NCBI GenBank assembly: GCA_002319075.1
Contig: NVQB01000001.1
Span: 2,480,001 to 2,544,000 of the forward strand
DNA length: 64,000 nucleotides
Direction: 5' to 3'
Source of the DNA: Sphingobacteriaceae bacterium
GTDB lineage: Bacteria; Bacteroidota; Bacteroidia; B-17B0; Aurantibacillaceae
Position 1 is the first letter of the stretch. Each line of letters opens with the position of its first letter. Of this stretch, positions 13,086 to 37,789 are shown piece after piece. A program made the translations under genes and the position numbers. The notes under the pieces were generated by a model. The model saw nothing but the letters and a program-made list of their open reading frames with translations, was not told the DNA's origin and did not search any database.

Positions 13086-13303
13086 GGTCTCGACTACGCT
13101 CGACCTGACACTCGACTACGCTCGACCTGACACCTGAGTACGCTCGAGCTGGCACCTGAGTACGCTCGAGCTGCCACCTGAGTACGCTCGACCTGACACC
13201 TGATTACGCTCGACCTGACAGTTGAGTACGCTCGAGCTGTCACCTGAGTACGCTCGAGCTGGCACCTGAGTACGCTCGACCTGACACCTGACTACGCTCG
13301 AGA
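13086..13303. repeat. 22-bp direct tandem repeat array, 10 units
   Basis: The core GCTCGA recurs at 13098, 13120, 13142, 13164, 13186, 13208, 13230, 13252, 13274 and 13296, an exact 22-base period. The array starts immediately after the tatA stop codon. Units vary (ACCTGACA or AGCTGGCA after the core), but all keep TACGCTCGA. The same core is in the 26-bp array at 1.0-1.3 kb. Open frames seen on the reverse strand here are only a product of the repeats. Confidence 0.95.
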
Positions 13304-30540: not shown

Positions 30541-30660
30541 TTACTTTTTCTTAGCTGCTTTTTTTGCAGTTTTTTTAGCTGCTTTTTTTGGAGCTGCTTT
30601 TTTTGTTGCTTTCTTAGCTGCTTTTTTAGGAGCTGCTTTTTTTGCTGCTTTTTTTGCCAT
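30541..30660 (-). CDS. Histone H1-like Lys/Ala-rich DNA-binding peptide
   Basis: ATG at 30658-30660 to TAA at 30541-30543 encodes 39 residues composed almost only of Lys and Ala in AAKKAA-type repeats with two APKKAA segments and two threonines. There is no other domain. Such tails resemble the C-terminal domain of histone H1 and of bacterial Hc1/AlgP-like proteins, which bind DNA through positive charge. Its own terminators follow directly, so it is expressed as a unit. The 281-base interval upstream (30661-30941) is AT-rich and shows nothing else I can support. Confidence 0.8.
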   Translation of the reverse strand: MAKKAAKKAAPKKAAKKATKKAAPKKAAKKTAKKAAKKK

Positions 30661-30941: not shown

Positions 30942-32579
30942 TTACTCTTTAATCAAAATTTCTTCTTCAATTTCCCAATCTGATAAAACTTTTAGTTGTT
31001 TTGAATTAATAATGACCTTTTCGGGTTGTTGTTTGCGAAGAATATTACCACTGTCCCATTTTTTATTTTTATTGTCGTCAAAAATAATTTTTGTTGTGTA
31101 TACAGCGGGCAAAACATCAATAAATTCAAGTGTTACAGCGTTACTATCAGAAAGTGAAAGAGCTACTGTTTGTTCTCTTACAACTTTTTCCTGCTCATTT
31201 ATAAGTTGAACTACATAATCTTGTTTTTGATCAAAAAGAAGTTTAAGGGTCAGTTTTCCGAATTCGATTTTGCTTTGCGTTGTAAAATTGACCATGCTGC
31301 TATCGTTTGTTATTTGTTTGAGATCAAAAAACGCACTCGTATCAACTTTGAGTGTATAACTGACTCCTTCTTTTAATTTGTGATCGATTTCATACACCGT
31401 AATGCCTGTCCAGCGGCCTTTTACGGGCACTTCGCTTATTAGTGAATCTTCTTTGCTGCTGAATTTGATTTTACTGAGATCACTTCGCGTGGTATCCATC
31501 CAGGTTAAAAAATTAAATCTTAATTTGTCATATAAGGCCAGTTTATTACCAATGGTATTTATCGTATAGGCTTTTAATTTTCTTTTCGCACTTAATCTTG
31601 GTAAAGTTAGCTTTAGAGTATCCGTTTTATTTATGCTGAGGTTTTCGAGTACTATTCCCAGGGTGTCAGTGGCATTTTTATAATAGAATGAAACCGTGTC
31701 TTTCTCTTGTCCCACGCTGGTTTCGGAAAGATTGCTCAGGTCGGCTGGTTTTAAAGAGCTTAATTGCACCTTTGCTTTTTTATTCAGAACAATCTGGCTA
31801 AATCCGTAGTAAGGACTGAGTGTTTTTTTGATAAAGGACTTTGAAGCTTCTTCCTGGAAAAGTTTTAAACGAATAGTGGTATCTGAAATTAATTTCAGGC
31901 TTGAACCCAAAAAAGCTATTCGCTCAGCGTCACCGTCGTAAAGATTGTTTTTATTTTTATCTGCGAAAGCGTAAAGCAAAAAAGATCTGTAAGGTAGGTT
32001 GGTAATCGAAAAAGCCCCGTTATCGCTGCTTCGTGCAATGTAATCAGGTTCTGTTTTGTAAGGAAGACTGTCGTTTGCTTTTTCGGAGTTGTAAAGTGCG
32101 ATCAAAACGTCTGAAACGGGTTTATTTGTAAAAGCGTCAATAACATCACCTTTAATTTTTAATGTATCGATAAAAGTGCCGGTTGAAAAAACATATTCAA
32201 AATCTTGAATTGAATTGGATTCGTTCATATCGGCAATGGCTTTGCCGAAGTAGATGCGGTATGTAGTATTGGGTGCAAGTTCTTCTTTTTTAAGTTTCAC
32301 CAGAATTTTCTTCCCGTCTGCACTTATATCGGGAGTGCTTTTTAAACGTGGGGTTACGATTAACTGATTGGTGAGATCTTTTACCTGCACAAATTCATCA
32401 AACCTAAGCGTGATGACTTCTGAATTAAAATTCGTTGTCTTAGCCGCAGGAACAGCTTCCAGCATTTTTGGGGGAGCTTCGTCTCTTTTACCACCGCTTA
32501 ACGGAACTACCTGAGCGCAGCGCACAATCACTAAAATTAAGCTAAAAACAAAAAGTATTTGTAGTACTTGCCTGGTCAT
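30942..32579 (-). CDS. Ig-like domain-containing lipoprotein
   Basis: A 545-residue lipoprotein. The signal sequence ends with Cys21 (VRC-AQVVPLSGGKRDE), the usual start of this Bacteroidota family. An Ig-like domain of the SbsA type follows (about 40-135: VITLRFDEFVQVKDL, LAPNTTYRIYFGKAIADMNE). A second domain (about 140-230) resembles a carboxypeptidase-regulatory-like fold (IKGDVIDAFTNKPVSDVLIALYN and an FADKNKNNLYDGD calcium-like loop). The remaining ~300 residues are beta-rich and unassigned. Surface exposure is likely but not shown. Confidence 0.8.
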   Translation of the reverse strand: MTRQVLQILFVFSLILVIVRCAQVVPLSGGKRDEAPPKMLEAVPAAKTTNFNSEVITLRFDEFVQVKDLTNQLIVTPRLKSTPDISADGKKILVKLKKEELAPNTTYRIYFGKAIADMNESNSIQDFEYVFSTGTFIDTLKIKGDVIDAFTNKPVSDVLIALYNSEKANDSLPYKTEPDYIARSSDNGAFSITNLPYRSFLLYAFADKNKNNLYDGDAERIAFLGSSLKLISDTTIRLKLFQEEASKSFIKKTLSPYYGFSQIVLNKKAKVQLSSLKPADLSNLSETSVGQEKDTVSFYYKNATDTLGIVLENLSINKTDTLKLTLPRLSAKRKLKAYTINTIGNKLALYDKLRFNFLTWMDTTRSDLSKIKFSSKEDSLISEVPVKGRWTGITVYEIDHKLKEGVSYTLKVDTSAFFDLKQITNDSSMVNFTTQSKIEFGKLTLKLLFDQKQDYVVQLINEQEKVVREQTVALSLSDSNAVTLEFIDVLPAVYTTKIIFDDNKNKKWDSGNILRKQQPEKVIINSKQLKVLSDWEIEEEILIKE

Positions 32580-32591
32580 TGATTAACTTTG
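32558..32591 (+). promoter_or_regulatory. Candidate Bacteroidota -33/-7 promoter for the radical SAM gene
   Basis: TTTG (32558-32561) and TAACTTTG (32584-32591, matching TAnnTTTG) lie 22 bases apart upstream of the plus-strand radical SAM gene at 32661. The spacing is near the 19-21 base norm. The -33 box overlaps the 5' end of the divergent lipoprotein gene. Confidence 0.4.
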
Positions 32592-32660
32592 TAAAAGTAA
32601 TGACAATAGTTGAGATAGCCCTTAGGTTTAGCTTTCTTTACGATTTTAAAATTTAAGCGT

Positions 32661-33674
32661 TTGCCAGACTATTATATAGGTATATTAAAAAAGCTAAGCT
32701 TGGCAAAATGTTTTAATTTTTTAAAACTGTTTGCAGGATTTCATTATTCACGACTTATTGGCCAGCCCAAGCAATTCGGACTTCCCGTTTTTGTGAGTAT
32801 AGAACCCACCACCAGTTGCAATCTAAGATGTCCACAGTGTCCGAGCGGTTTGCGTGAGTTTACGCGTCCAACCGGAATGCTGCAAAATCAGCTTTTCGAA
32901 AAGATCATCCTTCAGCTTAAAAAACACTTGCATAGCCTGACTTTTTATTTCCAGGGCGAACCTTATCTCAATCCTGATTTTTTAAAAATGGTTTCTTTTG
33001 CCAATGAGAATAATATTTACACCATCACAAGCACCAATGCTCATTATCTTACTGAAGAAAACGCTAAACAAACAGTAAAAAGTAAGTTAGATAAGCTTGT
33101 GATATCTGTGGATGGCATTACCCAGGAGGTTTATCAGCAATACCGCATTGGCGGCAAACTTGATAAAGTTATTGAGGGTACAAAAGAAATTTTAAAACAG
33201 AAGAAAGCATTAAAGAGTAAAACACCACATGTTGTTTGGCAATTTGTTGTTTTTAAACCGAACCAGGGGCAAATTGAAGCGGTAAAAAAATTAGGAAGGG
33301 AACTGGGCGTAGATGAGGTGAAAATTAAAACCGCCCAGATTTATGATTTTGAAAATGGACACGATCTTATTCCGGAATTGGATGCCTATTCGCGTTACAA
33401 AAAGAATGAGTCGGGAAACTTTGAAATTAAAAATAAATTATTGAACCAATGCTGGCGTATGTGGCAGGGCTGCGTAATAACCTGGGATGGAAAAATTGTG
33501 CCTTGTTGTTTTGATAAAGATGCCAAGTATAAGTTGGGGAATCTGGAATCTGACTCTTTCGAAAAAATATGGTTTTCTGATTCTTACAACAATTTCAGAA
33601 GATCGGTTCTAAGAAGCAGGAATCAAATTGATATTTGTACGAATTGTACGGAAGGTACGAAGGTTTGGTCTTAG
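32661..33674 (+). CDS. Radical SAM/SPASM domain protein
   Basis: A 337-residue radical SAM protein. The cluster motif is CNLRCPQC (Cys53, 57, 60) in SIEPTTSCNLRCPQCPSGLRE. SAM-binding strands follow (TFYFQGEPYLNPDF, ITSTNAHYLTEENAK). The C-terminal SPASM domain has cysteines in CWRMWQGC, VPCCFDKD and CTNCTEG, for auxiliary iron-sulfur clusters. SPASM enzymes modify peptides or other substrates; no precursor peptide is seen nearby. The start is TTG at 32661. The last 97 bases are the first copy of a 214-bp tandem repeat, so the 3' end has been amplified downstream. Confidence 0.88.
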   Translation: MPDYYIGILKKLSLAKCFNFLKLFAGFHYSRLIGQPKQFGLPVFVSIEPTTSCNLRCPQCPSGLREFTRPTGMLQNQLFEKIILQLKKHLHSLTFYFQGEPYLNPDFLKMVSFANENNIYTITSTNAHYLTEENAKQTVKSKLDKLVISVDGITQEVYQQYRIGGKLDKVIEGTKEILKQKKALKSKTPHVVWQFVVFKPNQGQIEAVKKLGRELGVDEVKIKTAQIYDFENGHDLIPELDAYSRYKKNESGNFEIKNKLLNQCWRMWQGCVITWDGKIVPCCFDKDAKYKLGNLESDSFEKIWFSDSYNNFRRSVLRSRNQIDICTNCTEGTKVWS

Positions 33675-34634
33675 CAGAAACATCCTTCATTTTTAAAACA
33701 CATAGAGACATAGTTCCAATAGCTATCTGGGCTATAGATTGCACTGTGTCTAGCTTAGAGTGACATAGGAATTGCGCTAAGCGCAATTATGTGATTCTTA
33801 CAACAATTTCAGAAGATCGGTTCTAAGAAGCAGGAATCAAGTTGATATTTGTACGAATTGTACGGAAGGTACGAAGGTTTGGTCTTAGCAGAAACATCCT
33901 TCATTTTTAAAACACATAGAGACATAGTTCCAATAGCTATCTGGGCTATAGATTACACTGTGTCTAGCTTAGAGTGACATAGGAAGTGCGCTAAGCGCAA
34001 TTATGTGATTCTTACAACAATTTCAGAAGATCGGTTCTAAGAAGCAGGAATCAAATTGATATTTGTACGAATTGTACGGAAGGTACGAAGGTTTGGTCTT
34101 AGCAGAAACATCCTTCATTTTTAAAACACATAGAGACATAGTTCCAATAGCTATCCGGGCCATAGATTACACTGTGTTTAGCTTAGAGTGACATAGGAAT
34201 TGCGCTAAGCGCAATTATGTGATTCTTACAACAATTTCAGAAGATTGGTTCTAAGAAGCAGGAATCAAATTGATATTTGTACGAATTGTACGGAAGGTAC
34301 GAAGGTTTGGTCTTAGCAGAAACATCCTTCATTTTTAAAACACATAGAGACATAGTTCCAATAGCTATCTGGGCTATAGATTACACTGTGTTTAGCTTAG
34401 AGTGACATAGGAATTGCGCTAAGCGCAATTATGTGATTCTTACAACAATTTCAGAAGATCGGTTCTAAGAAGCAGGAATCAAATTGGTATTTGTACGAAT
34501 TGTACGGAAGGTACGAAGGTTTGGTCTTAGCAGAAACATCCTTCATTTTTAAAACACATAGAGACATAGTTCCAATAGCTATCTGGGCTATAGATTACAC
34601 TGTGTTTAGCTTAGAGTGACATAGGAATTGCGCT
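33578..34634. repeat. 214-bp direct tandem repeat, about 4.9 copies
   Basis: Units begin at 33578, 33792, 34006, 34220 and 34434; the last is cut short at 34634. Marker words (GGTCTTAGCAGAAACATCC and others) recur at exactly 214-base spacing, and copies differ at only a few positions. Unit 1 covers the last 32 codons and the stop of the radical SAM gene plus 117 bases of flank; units 2-5 repeat both parts. Most units carry the 19-base near-palindrome AATTGCGCTAAGCGCAATT (33770-33788 in unit 1). No gene is found in the 33675-34654 gap. Confidence 0.96.
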
Positions 34635-34654
34635 TTGTTCAATTTTAACCGGAA

Positions 34655-35893
34655 CTATTCTTTATTAAAGACCAGGGTAAAACAGGCACCGCCGTCGTTG
34701 AAGAACCGTGATTTTCCGTTTAACTGTTCTGAAAGTCCTTGTATAACACTTACTCCCAGCGAATCATGTTTATCGAAATCTTCTTTTAGCCCGCTTCCAT
34801 TGTCTTTTACGGTTAACATTAACTCGTCGTTTTTTGTAATAACCAGATCAATGTTGATCATGCCTTTTTTTGCATCCTTAAAAGCATGTTTATAGCAATT
34901 ATTTAAAACCTCATTTAAAATGAGCGCACATGGAACCGCAGTATTCAGATTTAGTTTTACATCTTCGATATGTGTTTTCACCATAACCGAATTCACTAAC
35001 GAGGGATAAGACTCCTGTATCTCCACCAGCAGATCTTTCAGATAGTTTGTAAAATTTATTTCTGAAAAATTACCGGTTTTGTATAAGCGATTATGAATAA
35101 GTCCCATGGAATTTACATGGTTCTTACTTTCCCGGAGGATAGTATGAACTTCTTCATTCTCAGTACCATTTAGTTTCAGATTAAAGTAACCCACTATAAC
35201 GGCAAGATTATTTTTTACGCGATGGTGCAATTCAGCCAACAAGATTTCTTTTTCAGCCAGTGTTTTTTTGATCAGCGCTTCATTTTCTTCTTTTTCTTTC
35301 AGACGCTGTTCGTAAAGCTTACTATTGAGATTATTGTCCTGGATGGTGAGGTAAATAAAGAATCCCACAGCGGCCGAGCTCACTACAAGATTAATGACGA
35401 ACATCTGGTAACGCACACTTCCGGCACTCATACTTATTTCTGCTGAAGAGCTGTAAGTTATTGCATAAATAAGAAGTAGAACAGTGGTAAAACAAAACAG
35501 AAAGATCATAATTTTCCTGTCTTTCTCAGCATCAAAGATAAAGGATATGGCCAGCACGAGTGGAAAATAATAAAGATAATCGCCGGCCTGGATACTGGCG
35601 AGTGTACCAAAATAAAAAATGGTAAGGCTAATGTGAAGAAAGGTAGCAACGACAATAACCCGGTTATGCTGAAGGTTAAACGCTATCAAAGTAATTAAAA
35701 TGGCTGCAGTTGCCAGGAGGATAGATGATTCCAAATAATAACCATACCAAAAATCAGAAAAGCCGTTAATCAGGTAAATAAGAATAGCAATGGCAGAATA
35801 TTGGTTAACCAGTGTAAAACGCTTAATCTCTTTAGGAGTGAGTTCTGGTGTAAGGCCAAGTTTACAAATTGAAGCCCAGAGTTTTTTGATCAT
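34655..35893 (-). CDS. Membrane sensor histidine kinase (HisKA_2 type)
   Basis: A 412-residue kinase. The N-terminal ~190 residues hold about six hydrophobic helices, without a large external sensor domain. A short coiled coil (~190-220) leads to the HisKA_2 motif ELHHRVKNNLAVIVGYF, with the probable phosphoacceptor His224 in HRVKNN. The ATPase domain has NEVLNNCYKHAFKDA (N box) and VKDNGSGL (G1 box). No response regulator is adjacent, so it is an orphan, probably sensing a membrane or envelope signal. Its 3' end lies 20 bases from the 214-bp repeat. Confidence 0.87.
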   Translation of the reverse strand: MIKKLWASICKLGLTPELTPKEIKRFTLVNQYSAIAILIYLINGFSDFWYGYYLESSILLATAAILITLIAFNLQHNRVIVVATFLHISLTIFYFGTLASIQAGDYLYYFPLVLAISFIFDAEKDRKIMIFLFCFTTVLLLIYAITYSSSAEISMSAGSVRYQMFVINLVVSSAAVGFFIYLTIQDNNLNSKLYEQRLKEKEENEALIKKTLAEKEILLAELHHRVKNNLAVIVGYFNLKLNGTENEEVHTILRESKNHVNSMGLIHNRLYKTGNFSEINFTNYLKDLLVEIQESYPSLVNSVMVKTHIEDVKLNLNTAVPCALILNEVLNNCYKHAFKDAKKGMINIDLVITKNDELMLTVKDNGSGLKEDFDKHDSLGVSVIQGLSEQLNGKSRFFNDGGACFTLVFNKE

Positions 35894-35992
35894 GTACGGA
35901 GGTAAAGATAAGAGATTATTCGGGTTTGGAGTTTATGTAGCGTTTTTTGAAACTCAAAATTGCCTGGTCAGATTTAGGATAGAAGTTTACGA

Positions 35993-37789
35993 TTAGTCTT
36001 CCGCGCCAAAAATTTTTGCAATTAAAGTTTGGTTTTTTTCCACAATGGCTTTTCGTTTTAAACTTAGTTTAGGTGTTATTTCACCGCTTTCTACACCCCA
36101 CACGGCGTTGATAAGCTGGTACCGTTTTATTTGTTCAAAAGGAGCAAGGCTTGTATTTATTTTTTTGACATGATCGGCAATAATCTTTTTGAGTTCTTCA
36201 TTTTGAACCATTTCTGCATTGCCCCTCCATTCAATTCCATGATCGTTAGCGTATTCTTTGAAATTTGCAAACGAAGGCACAATGAGGGCGGAAGCAAATT
36301 TCTGGCCTTCACCAATTACCATCGACTGTTCGATATATTTTGATTCCTTTAATTTATTTTCAATCGCAATGGGTGAAATGTATTTTCCTCCACTATTTTT
36401 GAAAATTTCTTTTTTACGGTCGGTAATTTTTAAGAATTTGCCTTCTACAAAAGTTCCTATGTCGCCTGTATGGAACCAGCCGTTTTTATCGATGACTTCT
36501 GCAGTAGCTTCCGGATTTTTATAATAGCCCAACATTAAACTCGGACCTTTCATTAAGATCTCACCATCTTCGGGCGCAATTTTTACTTCTGAATTCTCAA
36601 CCGGAATTCCTACGGTTCCAAACATCCGGTGATCTTCGTCGAATCGGTTTACAGAGACAACTACGCAGGTTTCGGTTAAACCGTAGCCTTGCAAAAGGTT
36701 TAATCCTGCGCAATAAAAAATCCTTTCCAATCTTGGATTAAGCGCTGCTCCACCGCTTACTACAGCAACAACTTCACCACCAACAGCCGCGCGCCATTTT
36801 TTATAAACAAGAATGTCGGCAATTTTTACCTGCAGCGCATACCACATTCCGTTTTTGCCGTGTAGCTCAAACCTTTCGGCCAGGCGCATACTCCAATCGA
36901 AAATTTTCTTTTTGAAACCGGTGAGCTTTTCGCCTGTATCTGTGATCTTTTCTAAAACACGCTCTAAAACCCTGGGAACTGCTACAAAAATCTGCGGATG
37001 AATTTCCCTGCAATTGTCACCGATCGTTTCAACGCTTTCGGCATAATAAATACTTACGCCATGATACAAATAAAGCGTATTCAGGAACCGCTCATAAACA
37101 TGATTTAAAGGTAAAAAACTTAAGGCTTTCCATTTGTTTGTAAATGGAGCAATGTGTTCGCAGACATACACATTGGCCATCATGTTTTTGTGTGAGAGCA
37201 TCACACCTTTGGGTTGACCTGTAGTTCCTGAAGTATAGAGAATAGTCATCAGATCATTTTCGTCCACTTTATCTTTCAGAGCTGCAATTTTGTCGAGATC
37301 AAGATTCTTTTTTCCGAGCTCGATGAATTCCGAGAAAGTTTTTAGCCCTTCTAAGCCATCCAGACTGAAAACATATTTTAAATGCGTTAACTCCTTTTCT
37401 ATAGCTGCTAATTTTAACCAGGTAGATTTTTCGGAAATAAAAATCAGCTTGGCCTCACTGTGATTTAAAATAAACTTTAGATCATTATTGCTGATGGTTG
37501 GAAAAATCGGGGCTGTTAAAATGGATACCTGCTGACAACCATAATCCACAAAATTCCACTGCGGAGAATTGGCAGCCATGATTGCTATGTTGTCGCCGGG
37601 CTTAAGCCCAAGATGCAATAAACCTGAGCTCACGTAATTGGCGTTATTAATAAAATCATCTAAACTATAACTTACCCATTGCCTGCCGCCTTTGTCTGCA
37701 CCTAAATTCTCTTTTGCATTTAAAATGTCTTTTTTAGGAGCGTAGGTTTTTAGCCGGTCCAGGATATCGAATACACGTTTTAATTCCAT
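35993..37789 (-). CDS. Long-chain fatty acid--CoA ligase (AMP-binding)
   Basis: Adenylate-forming enzyme of 598 residues that activates fatty acids with ATP and CoA. The AMP-binding signature is YTSGTTGQPKGV (about 185-196), followed by SFLPLNHVYER, VVAVVSGGAALNPRLER, LQGYGLTETCVVVS, GWFHTGDIG, ITDRKKEIFKNSGGKYISP and the C-terminal lysine region LSLKRKAIVEKN. The frame runs to 37906, but the ATG at 37789 gives the normal N terminus (MELKRVFDILDRL). It is divergent from hldD. Confidence 0.93.
   Translation of the reverse strand: MELKRVFDILDRLKTYAPKKDILNAKENLGADKGGRQWVSYSLDDFINNANYVSSGLLHLGLKPGDNIAIMAANSPQWNFVDYGCQQVSILTAPIFPTISNNDLKFILNHSEAKLIFISEKSTWLKLAAIEKELTHLKYVFSLDGLEGLKTFSEFIELGKKNLDLDKIAALKDKVDENDLMTILYTSGTTGQPKGVMLSHKNMMANVYVCEHIAPFTNKWKALSFLPLNHVYERFLNTLYLYHGVSIYYAESVETIGDNCREIHPQIFVAVPRVLERVLEKITDTGEKLTGFKKKIFDWSMRLAERFELHGKNGMWYALQVKIADILVYKKWRAAVGGEVVAVVSGGAALNPRLERIFYCAGLNLLQGYGLTETCVVVSVNRFDEDHRMFGTVGIPVENSEVKIAPEDGEILMKGPSLMLGYYKNPEATAEVIDKNGWFHTGDIGTFVEGKFLKITDRKKEIFKNSGGKYISPIAIENKLKESKYIEQSMVIGEGQKFASALIVPSFANFKEYANDHGIEWRGNAEMVQNEELKKIIADHVKKINTSLAPFEQIKRYQLINAVWGVESGEITPKLSLKRKAIVEKNQTLIAKIFGAED

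Follow-up and report, generated by a model that had tools for sequence, protein, structure and literature searches.

A 214-bp tandem array behind a radical SAM gene contains half of a dispersed inverted-repeat element whose ends also bound GxxExxY genes

Introduction

Behind a radical SAM gene of a Sphingobacteriaceae bacterium, a 214-bp unit that includes the end of the gene is repeated almost five times. The question raised by this locus is whether the array is a device of the gene or has another origin. The original prediction, made from the letters alone, was that the repeated hairpins form a tunable 3' UTR. The DNA analysed, referred to as the window, is a stretch of 64,000 nucleotides (NCBI GenBank assembly GCA_002319075.1, contig NVQB01000001.1, positions 2,480,001 to 2,544,000 of the forward strand). 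Coordinates without a contig label are window positions, and the genome containing the window is called the source genome.

Results

Each unit joins a gene end to half of a dispersed element

Tandem Repeats Finder placed the array at 33578-34634, with a period of 214, 4.9 copies, 98% matches, 0% indels and a score of 2051; an array of such regularity is far beyond chance. The five unit starts given originally (33578, 33792, 34006, 34220 and 34434) were all borne out, and the claim of recent tandem amplification was supported. The features of the locus are listed below, where CATAG is the name given here to a dispersed inverted-repeat element.

32661..33674, plus strand: radical SAM/SPASM gene, 337 aa (Pfam SPASM and Radical_SAM over cut-off)
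33578..33791, plus strand: unit 1, with the true gene 3' end, spacer, CATAG left half and central palindrome
33698..33713, plus strand: left terminal repeat ACACATAGAGACATAG of the element in unit 1, again at 33912, 34126, 34340 and 34554
33770..33788, plus strand: central palindrome AATTGCGCTAAGCGCAATT in unit 1, again at 33984, 34198 and 34412, and as a half at 34626-34634
33792..34005, plus strand: unit 2
34006..34219, plus strand: unit 3
34220..34433, plus strand: unit 4
34434..34634, plus strand: unit 5, partial, stopping at the palindrome centre
34655..35893, minus strand: sensor histidine kinase-like gene, the convergent neighbour (HisKA_2, HATPase_c)

Within a unit, the gene end is followed by the left terminal repeat, the left arm, the central palindrome and ATG, and then by the TGATTC of the gene. 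The coding part was found to have 31 sense codons before the stop (97 nt if one extra base is included), and not 32, as first counted. The near-palindrome AATTGCGCTAAGCGCAATT, announced for every unit, was exact in units 1, 3 and 4, carried one mismatch in unit 2 and was halved in the last unit, behind which the CATAG right half is absent. That exchange between units keeps the gene intact is true by geometry, since the 3' end and the stop are present in every unit. No specific function could be assigned to the radical SAM gene from the NCBIfam matches listed (25 of 46 families), which were all under curated cut-offs.

Pairwise identity between units was 97.7-99.0%. Each unit differed from the consensus at 1-3 positions, with at least one private substitution in each, and one substitution was common to units 1 and 2; the copies are therefore distinct and partly ordered by descent. 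Three coding changes were seen, a small number, all non-synonymous and all in the extra copies (I to V, S to L, D to G), and the coding part of unit 1 equals the consensus. An assembly artefact would be expected to multiply a single unit, against which the private substitutions argue, and the array sits on a contig of 5,648,308 bp, a length (5.65 Mb) that would hardly be obtainable from short reads alone. We consider an artefact scarcely credible. The array is known from one genome of the species, no second one having been found.

The full 214-bp unit occurs at a single place in the source genome, where three more matches span 22-40 bp of the spacer. The spacer and hairpin of the unit are the left half and the central palindrome of CATAG. 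Allowing up to 2 mismatches, ACACATAGAGACATAG had 38 matches in the source genome vs 2 for the reversed pattern, and CATAG was located at 19 places, a few of them possibly chance. In relatives, the complete form reads TTTAA-CCACATAGAMACATAG ... ACATAG-palindrome-CTATGTG ... CTATGTKTCTATGTGG-TTAAA (consensus by eye). The 16 complete copies found there measured 121-142 bp, except for two among them that carry a further insert and measured 171-172 bp. A profile built from these 16 elements matched all five units (E 0.0011-0.0020) and nothing else in the window, and had no match in five shuffles. With E about 0.001, these matches to the window are weak, and they span no more than profile positions 2-66 of 147. 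The window contains half copies only.

CATAG shares several traits with miniature inverted-repeat elements (MITEs). The 16 complete copies from relatives are short and gene-less and have terminal inverted repeats. The element is dispersed, with 19 places in the source genome and up to 65 sites in genome G019, and it has its ends in common with a gene-bearing partner, described below. At two G019 loci (L265, L271) a further palindromic insert of the CCTCCTCTTGAGGAGG type lies inside CATAG; it is absent from the G006 counterpart of L265. A G019 locus with CATAG ends 1.4 kb apart (L279) was considered as an autonomous element and rejected, as its ORFs resemble host genes by eye.

The array is absent from 28 orthologous loci

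When the unit was searched in 60 genomes (source genome included), relatives matched only positions 1-103 of 214, covering the coding stretch and the bases directly after it, with the exception of one 27-bp spacer match in G034. A search of related genomes had been proposed with the original prediction, and its outcome was negative: of 28 orthologous loci (one of 29, L075, being left out), 0 had a long-period array where the gene ends. One locus (L074) has a 7-bp unit repeated five times directly behind the stop, and two (L084, L086) have arrays in another part of the locus.

Element-like sequence was present on the 3' side of the gene in 3 of the 28 loci. One complete CATAG element lies about 40 bp behind the stop in G035 (L069). 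In the closest relative, G001 (L059, 90% protein identity), the gene is followed by another word-repeat sequence, ACCACCAAGAACACAAAG, and in G026 (L066) by yet another, GCCACAGATTTCGCGGATTACACAGA (both by eye).

Five intergenic G019 sites, picked where matches broke, were compared with G006 or G021. CATAG element 1 was missing from G006, and G021 has at least part of it; element 3 was present in G006 and missing from G021, and element 4 had other sequence in its place in G021. Two elements built of CAGAT and CAAAG words were both missing from G006. Gain and loss were indistinguishable at the five sites, and no target-site duplication was readable there, the flanks being too diverged. The elements may be mobile.

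Arrays recur at CATAG and at other dispersed repeats

Tandem arrays were found at 5 of the 19 CATAG places. A gene 3' end is included in two of them and a gene 5' end in one; the other two have neither.

Array A: the window array, 214 bp x 4.9, with the radical SAM 3' end
Array B: C1:269675-270608, 215 bp x 4.4, including the 3' end of a gene that we take, from its sequence, to be pirin-like
Array C: C1:3989448-3989897, 197 bp x 2.3, including a small gene's 5' end
Array D: C1:3095178-3096110, 104 bp x 9.0, without a notable neighbouring gene end
Array E: C1:962004-962484, about 240 bp x 2.0, likewise without a notable neighbouring gene end

With one array carrying a 5' end and two neither, the gene 3' end in the unit reflects the chance reach of a duplication and no rule. 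In an even 0.8-Mb sample of the source genome, 12 array regions with a period of at least 40 were found, seven intergenic and five coding (split by eye, without gene calling). All seven intergenic arrays consist of dispersed repeat sequence, three of the word-repeat type and four of a TCGA type. In G001, 0.4 Mb contained one such array region.

These counts bear on a rival account of the array, ordinary tandem duplication. Tandem duplications arise without special sequences, and any 200-bp stretch could have been duplicated here, the element being present by coincidence; that array boundaries vary from case to case fits this reading. The share of CATAG places that are arrays and the repeat nature of every intergenic array in the sample speak against it, and we regard it as unlikely.

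TCGA-type arrays (TACGCTCGA / TCGAC words, units of 21-60 bp) are frequent in the source genome, at 1025-1314 and 13095-13301 of the window and also at L181, L183, L203, L208 and L210. DUF559 genes were tried as their partners and rejected on a small sample, two source-genome loci with flank scores of 8 and 11. Upstream of array D, an open frame stops inside the first CATAG unit (about positions 3178-3196 of L397, G000:C1:3092001-3099000), so that the element seems to supply its stop codon. A lysine/alanine-rich low-complexity repeat at 30544-30655 of the window, with units of 12-13 and 39 bp, is probably the end of a minus-strand coding sequence.

A tunable 3' UTR is not supported

The predicted 3' UTR device would have hairpin copies setting mRNA stability or termination, with the unit number varying under selection. 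As RNA, the palindrome does form a strong hairpin (-16.7 kcal/mol, z -4.6), and the array stands between convergent genes. The remnant in the last unit folds poorly (z 0.09). Terminator-like sites, defined as a hairpin followed by a T tract, numbered 0 in 33400-34900 vs 1.0 expected in shuffles, and no structured RNA was matched in Rfam (E up to 1) within 32000-36000. The absence of the array from all 28 orthologous loci, the same kind of array elsewhere with a gene 5' end or without any gene end, and the amino-acid changes in the extra copies also speak against such a device. The hairpin itself is the central palindrome of an element dispersed over 19 genome places. The 3' UTR reading is thus not supported, and we rate it as very improbable; nothing supports a regulatory role of the array, and a mild one may exist.

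CATAG ends also bound GxxExxY genes

At three loci (L269, L276 and L277, 461-469 bp), CATAG ends surround a gene of the GxxExxY family (TIGR04256/PF13366), which to our knowledge is named by NCBIfam after its motif only. L269 was identified by a family scan, and all three places were recovered in the family search, L277 with one internal stop. The source genome has four GxxExxY matches. One of these (L314) has CATAG ends on both sides; its inverted repeat reaches a score of 10, short of the 12 required below. The L314 palindrome, ACATAGGAATTGCGC..GCGCAATT, is of the type seen in the window's unit, at a similar distance from the terminal repeat (by eye). In G056 (L281), CATAG elements with a 29-bp spacer form a tandem array, of which the first ones keep only the GxxExxY 3' part (by eye). 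These remnants suggest that gene-less copies can arise by internal deletion.

For each GxxExxY locus, the two 300-bp flanks were compared and their best ungapped inverted repeat was scored. A score of at least 12 was reached at 68 of 92 loci vs 23 of 276 mismatched pairings and 6 of 300 places picked at random; direct repeats reached it at 13 of the 92. Split by kinship, 28 of 36 loci from other genera and 40 of 56 from the source genome's genus were positive. Five of 97 loci were left out for lack of a motif match (L315, L356, L368, L373 and L277), and the off-centre L306 and L312 were kept. A second, phylum-wide set gave 16 of 25 loci vs 31 of 600 mismatched pairings (two of 27, L431 and L447, were truncated and left out). 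Among plasmid records, 3 of 8 had flank repeats (Bacteroides finegoldii, Gemmatirosa and Bernardetia). The flanking repeats are reiterated short words that differ between loci. At many loci, though not at all of them, a GxxExxY gene thus lies between inverted repeats of reiterated words.

The family was over cut-off in 0 of 14 control genomes and had matches in 50 of 60 and 29 of 61 genomes, the source genome being in both sets. D, E and K of the motif, presumably the catalytic residues, were conserved in 90 of 90, 88 of 90 and 90 of 90 rows. No relatives were found in the PDB by sequence (E up to 1). Rpn/YhgA-like proteins have a PD-(D/E)XK fold as well and, unlike GxxExxY, belong to Pfam family PF04754. 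In the cited passages, the PF04754 proteins were formerly called transposase_31 and are linked to RecA-independent transfer (PMC5350276, PMC10327210).

The nature of the enzyme bears on a further origin for the array. The element's enzyme could copy from one end, in a rolling-circle-like manner, taking flanking host DNA along and depositing it in tandem, which we take to resemble IS91-like one-ended transposition. Element and flank are indeed joined in the units of several arrays (A, B, C and, with its 29-bp spacer, G056 L281). The enzyme found has a PD-(D/E)XK-type nuclease motif, however, and no HUH one, and the units end at differing points of the element; one-ended copying appears doubtful at best.

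Repeat words follow protein lineages among relatives

On a tree of 67 labelled GxxExxY proteins (25 of the 92 loci had no word label and were left out), the flanking word changed 15 times vs 41.9 in shuffles (0 of 200 as low), and 8 of 9 CATAG rows fell in one supported clade. With the 22 rows from other genera only, 9 changes were counted vs 12.1 in shuffles (3 of 200 as low), a weak signal. Among relatives, word and protein clearly match; at depth, between genera, the match is no more than suggested. Word labels may rest on one flank; at L365 (G033), labelled CATAG, the flanks agree only outside the word.

CATAG sites had a median of 25 in the 8 genomes with a gene labelled CATAG-type vs 1 in the other 52 (one-sided p 0.003), with only 0-2 sites in 3 of the 8; G033, whose gene is labelled CATAG-type, has none. 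Five genomes (G012, G020, G021, G026 and G056) have 11-34 CATAG sites without a CATAG-type gene among the GxxExxY genes sampled, and G012, with 11 sites, has no GxxExxY match at all.

Discussion

The array is probably a by-product of the instability of a dispersed inverted-repeat element, and not a selected 3' UTR device. An ancestral CATAG element, a gene-less relative of the carriers of GxxExxY (PD-(D/E)XK) genes, would have stood 23 bp behind the radical SAM stop. A local duplication would then have fused the right foot of its palindrome (AATTATG) to TGATTC in the last 100 bp of the gene, creating a 214-bp direct repeat; 2-3 bases common to both sides may have guided the join once a break had formed or a fork had stalled at the palindrome. 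Unequal recombination or slippage could have expanded this repeat to five units. As the unit ends are the palindrome foot and a TGA in the gene, the duplication may have started at the palindrome. We infer the break, any part of a nuclease, the shared bases at the join and the expansion by unequal exchange. Taken as a whole, an origin in element instability is the reading that we judge probable. Joining by snap-back copying of a palindrome arm, suggested by the last unit without its arm, was discarded because the palindrome is a normal, central part of complete elements.

Similarly to BrickBuilt, a MITE of Porphyromonas gingivalis with 23-nt unit repeats inside the element, CATAG is an intergenic inverted-repeat element of Bacteroidota tied to tandem repetition; here, unlike in BrickBuilt, half an element and a gene end repeat together as 214 bp, and the BrickBuilt abstract makes no GxxExxY link (PMC4596501). 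The IS982-derived MITE of Cardinium is likewise, in the cited passages, a short gene-less element with ends common to a longer gene-bearing one (PMC9769881). Unlike IS-derived MITEs as portrayed there, the partner in our case encodes a PD-(D/E)XK protein, and reiterated words make up the terminal repeats (PMC9769881). The REP/RAYT systems also tie dispersed extragenic palindromes to a protein family; CATAG is set apart from their description in the cited passages by its 121-172 bp, its word-repeat ends and its GxxExxY partner (PMC2817692, PMC3733652). Work on quasipalindrome template switching and palindrome-associated rearrangement describes, in the passages cited, rearrangements that start at palindromes; in contrast to those studies, only the product is seen here and not the event (PMC7202029, PMC7999016). 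Open-access literature on MITEs and on PDDEXK proteins with terminal inverted repeats contained nothing alike among the matches listed, which is no claim of absence from print. Of the papers that name GxxExxY or PF13366, one does so in an unrelated passage (PMC8934634).

The tie of the element to GxxExxY is the part worth pursuing. GxxExxY is a small putative DNA-cutting enzyme, and its element class a little noticed one. The chances seem to us evenly balanced that GxxExxY proteins serve as the enzymes of a widespread and so far undescribed class of mobile elements, in which a PD-(D/E)XK nuclease gene lies between terminal inverted repeats of a reiterated 7-8 bp word and each protein lineage recognises its own word (CACATAG, CACAGAG, CACAGAT, CACTAAG, CGCAAAG and others). 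Gene-less palindromic derivatives would seed part of the intergenic repeats, and breakage and repair would yield arrays that take in gene ends, as in the window. This proposal gives anonymous intergenic repeats of Bacteroidota a testable identity and points to a possible function of GxxExxY. Should GxxExxY proteins act on the word repeats of their own elements, this one family would comprise nuclease-type mobile-element enzymes of many natural specificities. The array in turn illustrates how such an element may amplify part of the gene next to it and leave that gene whole.

Two further settings of GxxExxY were observed. On a Sphingomonas parapaucimobilis plasmid (L382), the gene lies between fabD and fabG, on the same strand and with short gaps, without a flanking inverted repeat. 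Matches were also located inside 883-aa frames (G084:C9:91044, G096:C22:338277 and G110:C1:72354), which may represent one family in which the GxxExxY domain is fused to a large protein.
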